A stretch of DNA of 64,000 bases from Glutamicibacter protophormiae. Lineage in GTDB: Bacteria; Actinomycetota; Actinomycetes; Actinomycetales; Micrococcaceae. Of this stretch, positions 1,468 to 2,444 are shown one piece after another. Under the pieces are notes generated by a model. The model made no database searches and had not been told where the DNA came from. It saw only the letters and a program-made list of their open reading frames with translations. The stretch's first letter is position 1. Each line of letters starts with the position of its first letter. Position numbers and translations under genes: made by a program. Location: the NCBI RefSeq assembly GCF_014647495.1, contig NZ_BMPH01000006.1:62001-126000 (forward strand), read 5' to 3'.

Positions 1468-2397
1468 TTACTCTCCTTCCCCTTCGTGCTTCACGATCAC
1501 GCTGTTCACGGTATCCGGACTGCGGTCGTATTCTTCACCAATGTGTCCATCTTCCAGCTTGGCCATCTGAGCCTTGAACTCTGCCTCGCTGACAACCTTC
1601 AAGTTGAAGAGCATTTCCGAGTGGTACTCGCCGCAAAGCTCGGCGCACTTACCATCGAAGGTACCTTCGACCTGTGGGGTCAGGTAGATGTGATTGGTCT
1701 TACCTGGGATCATGTCCAGCTTCTGAAGGAAGGCCGGAACCCAGAACGAGTGGATGACATCGCGGCTGTTGAGCTGGAACTCTACCGACTTGCCTACTGG
1801 CAGGTACAGGGTTGGCAGAGTTTCCTGAATGCCCTCGGAGCCATCGTCGTTCAGGTGAGCCTGAATGCCGGCGTAGTGCTTCTCCTGATCACCATCGAAG
1901 GTGTAGTTGAAGTCCCAAGCCCACTGCTTGGCGCGAACGTCGACGACGATCTCCGAGTCAACAGGCTTGTTGATGCTGTTAACCAGGTTGTTGTTGAAGC
2001 TAAAGAAGACCAGAACAAGGACCAATGGAATGGCCGTGTAGAAGATCTCCAATGGCAGGTTGTAGCTCAGCTGACGTGGGTAGCCAGTATCGTTCTTGCG
2101 GCGACGGTAGGCGATGATGCACCACAGCATCAAGCCCCAGGTCAAAACACCGATGACAACCACGGCAATCCACGAGTTAACCCAGAAGTCCTGGATAGCT
2201 GCGGTGTGGTTGGTGGTGTCGCGGTCCACGTTCGGAAGCCAACCGCGTTGAACTTCCGCTGAACATCCCGTCAACAGCAATGCGCTGGTGCCGACCAAGG
2301 CTAATACTTTGGCCTTGGCTTTACCGCGACTGCCGGTTCGGTCTTGCGAACTCACAGACGGCCCTTCCTCTTTGTTGGTGCAGAATGTGGTCTTCAT
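1468..2397 (-). CDS. ctaC: Cytochrome c oxidase subunit II (lipoprotein type)
   Basis: Subunit II carries the Cu_A centre that receives electrons for the oxidase. The 309-residue protein has a lipoprotein signal with lipobox LTGC near residue 45, two transmembrane helices (about 70-95 and 115-140) and a periplasm-side cupredoxin domain ending in the Cu_A ligand motif [12 protein letters not shown] near residue 255. The ATG at 2397 is chosen because GAGGTGA lies 4 nt upstream. That Shine-Dalgarno sequence and the ATG both lie in an inverted repeat (see the hairpin at 2392-2444). First gene of ctaC-ctaD; separated from the upstream ErpA-like gene by a strong terminator, so it has its own promoter. 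Confidence 0.97.
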
Positions 2398-2444
2398 AAG
2401 TCACCTCGCGAATTACTGCTTGCACGGTGAGGTGGCTTATGAAG
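2392..2444 (-). promoter_or_regulatory. Hairpin that masks the ctaC ribosome binding site and start codon
   Basis: On the transcribed strand the arm at 2444-2429 pairs with the arm at 2407-2392. Fifteen of 16 positions match, the exception being one C/A mismatch, around a 21-nt loop. The 3' arm contains GAGGTGA and the ATG of ctaC; the 5' arm contains CCACCTC, an anti-Shine-Dalgarno-like string. A possible -10 (TATGTT, 2448-2453) would start transcription at about the first base of the hairpin. What is seen is the repeat and its overlap with the start codon; a role in translational control is inferred. Confidence 0.6.

Follow-up and report, generated by a model that had tools for sequence, protein, structure and literature searches.

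The hairpin in the leader of ctaC, the gene for subunit II of the cytochrome aa3 oxidase, is best read as a leader element of an ordinary kind, one that retains its shape among relatives while its letters turn over, and the ctaC start codon of Glutamicibacter is corrected here to a GTG that lies outside it. The more surprising lead is a probable oxidase-wide BlaI-family operator, through which ctaC would join a probable BlaI/M56 regulon that takes in the aa3, bc1 and bd branches of respiration. Positions below are those of the window, the whole stretch of 64,000 nucleotides of Glutamicibacter protophormiae DNA that was analysed. On the minus strand the order is erpA, a terminator-like repeat, TAAGCT, the dyad, the hairpin, GAGGAAGG and GTG:

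2568–2975: erpA, ErpA/IscA family (family match)
2553–2504, minus strand: inverted repeat leading into a T run, probably the terminator of erpA, separating erpA from ctaC (read from the sequence; self-match)
2478–2473, minus strand: TAAGCT, the proposed −10 box for ctaC (conserved in leaders; TANNNT form), from which a start of transcription near 2466 is predicted
2473–2458, minus strand: TCTAC-N5-GTAGTA, an inverted repeat that is probably the binding site of a BlaI-family repressor and that overlaps the predicted start of transcription (exact match in its own genome; relatives)
2444–2429, minus strand: 5' arm of the leader hairpin, CTTCATAAGCCACCTC (read from the sequence; fold; Glutamicibacter alignment)
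2428–2408, minus strand: hairpin loop, 21 nt (read from the sequence; fold)
2407–2392, minus strand: 3' arm of the hairpin, GAGGTGACTTATGAAG, containing a decoy GAGGTGA and ATG (sequence; fold)
2370–2363, minus strand: probable true Shine-Dalgarno sequence of ctaC, GAGGAAGG (kept across relatives)
2355–2353, minus strand: GTG, with high probability the true start codon of ctaC (kept across relatives; lipoprotein signal close after)
1468–2355, minus strand: ctaC, cytochrome aa3 oxidase subunit II (open reading frame; NCBIfam match)

The hairpin itself was borne out on re-reading the minus strand: its arms are complementary at 15 of 16 positions, with C2435/A2401 the sole mismatch, around a loop of 21 nt, and GAGGTGA (2407–2401), ATG (2397–2395) and TATGTT (2453–2448) all lie where the preliminary description had placed them. 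Folding of 2460–2370 gave −24.4 kcal/mol, compared with −13.65 (sd 2.75) for 200 dinucleotide shuffles (z −3.91), none of which matched the native energy.

The preliminary description had further taken the ATG and GAGGTGA in the 3' arm for the ctaC start codon and Shine-Dalgarno sequence, locked in the stem, and that identification is not supported, since relatives keep GTG with GAGGAAGG, outside the hairpin. The ATG at 2397 is the longest mechanical start of the frame, not the conserved one; it lies 42 nt upstream of GTG, in frame and with no stop between. From GTG, ctaC encodes a lipoprotein precursor of 295 aa (NCBIfam aa3_CtaC_Actin, 2.1e-95; nearest named ctaC that of Glutamicibacter soli, 99% protein identity), in which the translation reads as a short basic stretch followed by a lipoprotein signal. 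We collected 119 ctaC leaders (18 genus genomes, 80 named relatives and 21 family loci) by the block GGAAGG.C.G.CTGTGAG, whose presence among them is consequently no proof of conservation. The GTG and its Shine-Dalgarno block are kept, however, in 27 of 30 independently drawn Micrococcaceae genomes, which were drawn by protein match, and AGGAAGGNCCGTCTGTGAGNTCGCA occurs within 2 mismatches in 21 of 24 family genomes as against 0 of 273 others of the order. The arm ATG is found at the same place in 14 of the 15 distinct Glutamicibacter leaders, being lost in G. creatinolyticus (L016/L028), and outside the genus an ATG in frame with GTG and upstream of it is confined to 6 of 68 distinct leaders, its distance differing among them. 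Because the GTG block is kept family-wide, the ATG is confined and the lipoprotein signal follows GTG, the ctaC start is with high probability the GTG at 2355–2353, and the arm ATG and GAGGTGA belong to Glutamicibacter and are very probably not the ctaC start.

A small hairpin, CUGUG-AGNU-CGCAG, is predicted at this GTG (2358–2343, minus strand). Its stem is nearly invariant, which leaves covariation nothing to work on, and one base of the loop is variable; in two leaders (L261/L262; also L263) a G opposite U is changed to A and the pair is retained.

The promoter proposed earlier, with TATGTT as the −10 box, was likewise set aside: within 45 nt of the dyad, TATGTT is present in 15 of 83 distinct leaders, all from the single Glutamicibacter cluster (1 of 24), as opposed to 74 of 83 leaders and 17 of 24 clusters for TAAGCT at the dyad, which is missing in the Nesterenkonia-type leaders, L076 and L124. 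Actinobacterial −10 boxes take the form TANNNT, which TAAGCT fits, and a promoter scan returned no TTGACA/TATAAT pair. GGTAAGCT occurs in 17 of 30 independently drawn family genomes, including some without the palindrome (L265, L267 and L269–L271). Because TAAGCT is widespread, TATGTT restricted to Glutamicibacter and GGTAAGCT present in genomes that lack the dyad, we infer from these patterns a transcription start near 2466. The stem, which would be transcribed from either candidate promoter, would then begin, at 2444, about 22 nt from the 5' end, with both arms in the message.

Within Glutamicibacter the pairing is kept, which speaks for the preliminary description: in an alignment of 15 distinct leaders (A1), the 15 stem pairs give 225 cells, and 224 of these hold a standard pair. 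One pair has changed on both sides (from A-U to G-C in G. creatinolyticus), while five others show changes on one side. Leader cores do not align across the family, so that covariation is confined to this subset and to a MAFFT alignment of 25 Arthrobacter-type leaders (A2), which yielded only 7 consensus pairs, one with a both-sides change. For shape, 83 distinct dyad-bearing leaders were grouped into 24 clusters (60% score limit). The median fold z of the 83 is −2.24, with 60 below −1.5; the cluster means average −1.81, with 18 of 24 at z −1 or lower, whereas random same-strand windows of the same loci (n=144) have a mean z of −0.40, 26% being at or below −1 (Mann-Whitney p 2.9e-7). Strong stems occur in clusters of independent sequence (for example L003, −3.71; L082, −3.54; L043, −3.30; L080, −3.16), and 18 of 24 clusters have a helix of no fewer than 6 pairs across the leader, where core shuffling predicts 11.65 (p 0.0016). 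The arms share no sequence between genera or clusters. The stem-loop shape is thus kept widely in Micrococcaceae ctaC leaders while the letters change between genera.

We favour, with moderate confidence, the explanation that the stem is a constitutive stem-loop of the 5' UTR which serves to insulate the true ribosome site, to protect the message, or both, and that it is no switch on ctaC translation. Lying in the untranslated leader between the promoter and operator on one side and the true ribosome-binding site on the other, the stem would fold once transcribed and stay folded, so that the leader would be unable to pair with the ribosome site; it would probably also shield the ctaC message from ribonucleases and, in Glutamicibacter, silence the chance resemblance to a ribosome site that GAGGTGA and ATG create in the arm. 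In the folding model the true Shine-Dalgarno sequence is unpaired at 0.61 in native leaders versus 0.52 with the leader core shuffled, and 18 of the 24 clusters have it more open in the native form (Wilcoxon p 0.003), a predicted gain that is small, though of the sign expected for insulation.

A second plausible role, suggested by analogy, is to protect the 5' region. E. coli ompA has an mRNA-stabilising 5'-UTR stem-loop, and the ctaC leader stem resembles it in standing clear of the ribosome site, on its upstream side. The same likeness extends to recA and vacA, given in PMC7509114 as 5'-UTR stem-loops that stabilise mRNA; there too the ribosome site is outside the stable stem. Unlike these three, the ctaC stem stands about 22 nt from its predicted 5' end, which makes the idea of protection weaker, and its letters change between genera; an effect on ctaC would be by likeness to them. 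An open-access literature search found no paper on a ctaC leader hairpin.

Alternatively, the stem may be recognised by its shape, with an RNA-binding protein or a ribonuclease (RNase III or RNase E, for example) acting on it to tune the level of ctaC message. This would suit a shape kept with little common sequence, and a stem that is not seen at ctaE, where leaders of the same family have a mean z of −0.59 (n=20, including L201, which is worthless because a second match truncated it to 11 nt); however, no conserved loop or bulge was seen, no Rfam family was found and no partner is known, and we regard it as doubtful.

Ordinary folding of leaders in a G+C-rich genome, under weak selection or none, with the conservation in Glutamicibacter due to shared descent, is also unlikely, but several results speak for it. 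Mean z is above −1 in 6 of the 24 clusters, in one of them reaching +1.06, and fixed 59-nt windows of 30 further family leaders average −1.08, several being above 0. Windows just upstream of the promoter have the same mean z as the leaders, −1.81 (n=24), so that a score of this size is not peculiar to the leader; presumably the strong upstream folding comes from the erpA terminator located there. A terminator scan with a loop limit of 8 did not list 2553–2504. Against this reading stand the several independent clusters with strong stems and the random windows without them. Among the same 30 leaders, mean z is −1.23 for the 13 that lack the dyad and −0.96 for those that carry it, and therefore the stem does not depend on the operator.

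It is much less probable that the ATG at 2397 is a ctaC start, or an alternative one, to which the stem governs access in response to temperature, metal, haem or a protein, as the preliminary description had envisaged. GAGGTGA and ATG are indeed both paired in the model, and the in-frame ATG persists in nearly all distinct Glutamicibacter leaders, yet outside the genus such ATGs are few and scattered while the GTG and its ribosome site are conserved. Control by temperature is unlikely: over a modelled series from 10 to 65 C the ATG is unpaired at only 0.00–0.03 and most of GAGGTGA stays paired, while the true Shine-Dalgarno sequence is about half unpaired throughout. RNA thermometers such as ROSE and FourU also pair a ribosome-site-like sequence and an ATG, but in ctaC the paired elements are probably not the gene's own ribosome site and start; with no melting predicted up to 65 C and the GTG and its Shine-Dalgarno sequence outside the stem, a thermometer was rejected. 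The want of any arm sequence common to genera also argues against a sequence-specific binder.

Two further candidates were dropped. A riboswitch was rejected because the clusters have no arm sequence in common and no Rfam family was found: the search gave two matches and no more, both below threshold and to human-type RNAs, and they lay elsewhere or on the opposite strand. A transcription attenuator was rejected because 2391–2371 contains no T run and the terminator scan gave no terminator-like site there. That the inverted repeat acts as DNA, as a second operator, is highly improbable: it is a long dyad just 3' of a promoter, but its arms have no sequence common to genera, unlike the conserved operator upstream.

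The dyad overlapping the predicted transcription start is probably a BlaI-family operator, to which binding is predicted from the following patterns. CTAC-N5/6-GTAG is present in 116 of the 119 ctaC leaders. The genome itself has two BlaI-family genes (PF03965), one of which (71.7 bits) adjoins an M56 peptidase gene and is divergent from cydA, with TTCTAC-N5-GTAGAA between them. Exact TCTAC-N5-GTAGWA occurs at seven places in this genome (window 2473–2458, minus strand; G000:C1:213306, C6:55531, C15:31394 and others):

between blaI and cydA
at ctaC
at ctaE, before qcrC
before hmp, divergent from an Rrf2 regulator
before trkH
between APP1-type and pyridoxamine-oxidase-type genes
about 700 nt before copC

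Among 30 loci of relatives, 3 could not be oriented, and the dyad lies upstream of blaI in all 27 that were readable, 25 of them with a divergent cydA; the strict dyad is at ctaE in 20 of 30. At ctaC the dyad is found in 17 of 30 family genomes. All 17 are among the 21 that have a clear BlaI; it occurs in 0 of 3 with a weak one and 0 of 5 with none, and is absent in one genome untyped for BlaI. Fisher's test on this co-occurrence gives p 1.2e-4 if weak BlaI counts as absent and 0.0067 if it counts as present, values that overstate the case since the genomes are related. A genome-wide enrichment was not borne out, the one-mismatch dyad pattern having 36 and 41 matches versus 100 and 97 for the reversed control, and a search with the long pattern CTCTACNNNNNGTAGTAAAAC at 3 mismatches found only the ctaC site exact, the remainder being chance. 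What argues for an operator is only the seven exact places and their conservation in relatives. In other families of the order (69 genomes searched, 53 matched), the motif parser could read 6 of 30 loci, 0 with the dyad.

As it is common to the ctaC, ctaE-qcr, cydA/blaI and hmp promoters and stands beside a BlaI-M56 pair, TTCTAC-N5-GTAGAA probably marks a respiratory BlaI regulon. According to PMC8457756, Clostridium thermocellum BlaI_0696 recognises GTCTAT repeats five nucleotides apart, and the ctaC-type dyad is alike in its five-nucleotide spacer and in forming an inverted repeat beside the regulator's own gene. Unlike known BlaI/CopY-family operators, it has the half-site TTCTAC, and its targets would be terminal oxidases (ctaC, ctaE, cydA) and hmp, not beta-lactam resistance. 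PMC5874750 and PMC12565901 describe regulation of the ATP synthase operon by BlaI in M. tuberculosis, and our open-access literature search found no paper on a BlaI regulon of oxidases in Micrococcaceae.

Tentatively, respiration in Micrococcaceae might be controlled in two layers, with the BlaI-type repressor, its M56 partner encoded with it beside cytochrome bd, acting on transcription start of both oxidase branches and hmp, and the shape-conserved stem, which of the two kinds of leader tested marks that of ctaC alone, setting the yield of subunit II per transcript. The leader stem, if the reading of it is true, offers a directly testable answer to how these soil actinobacteria balance their two oxidase branches.

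Two minor observations concern these loci. The second BlaI gene, L109 (G000:C2:64818-65144), adjoins an M56-like frame and is near DsbA-like and CcdA-like frames, names that come from reading the translations. Among the ctaE leaders L182–L211, many relatives keep a block that ends in AGACATAATGG or a like sequence and immediately precedes the start of ctaE.
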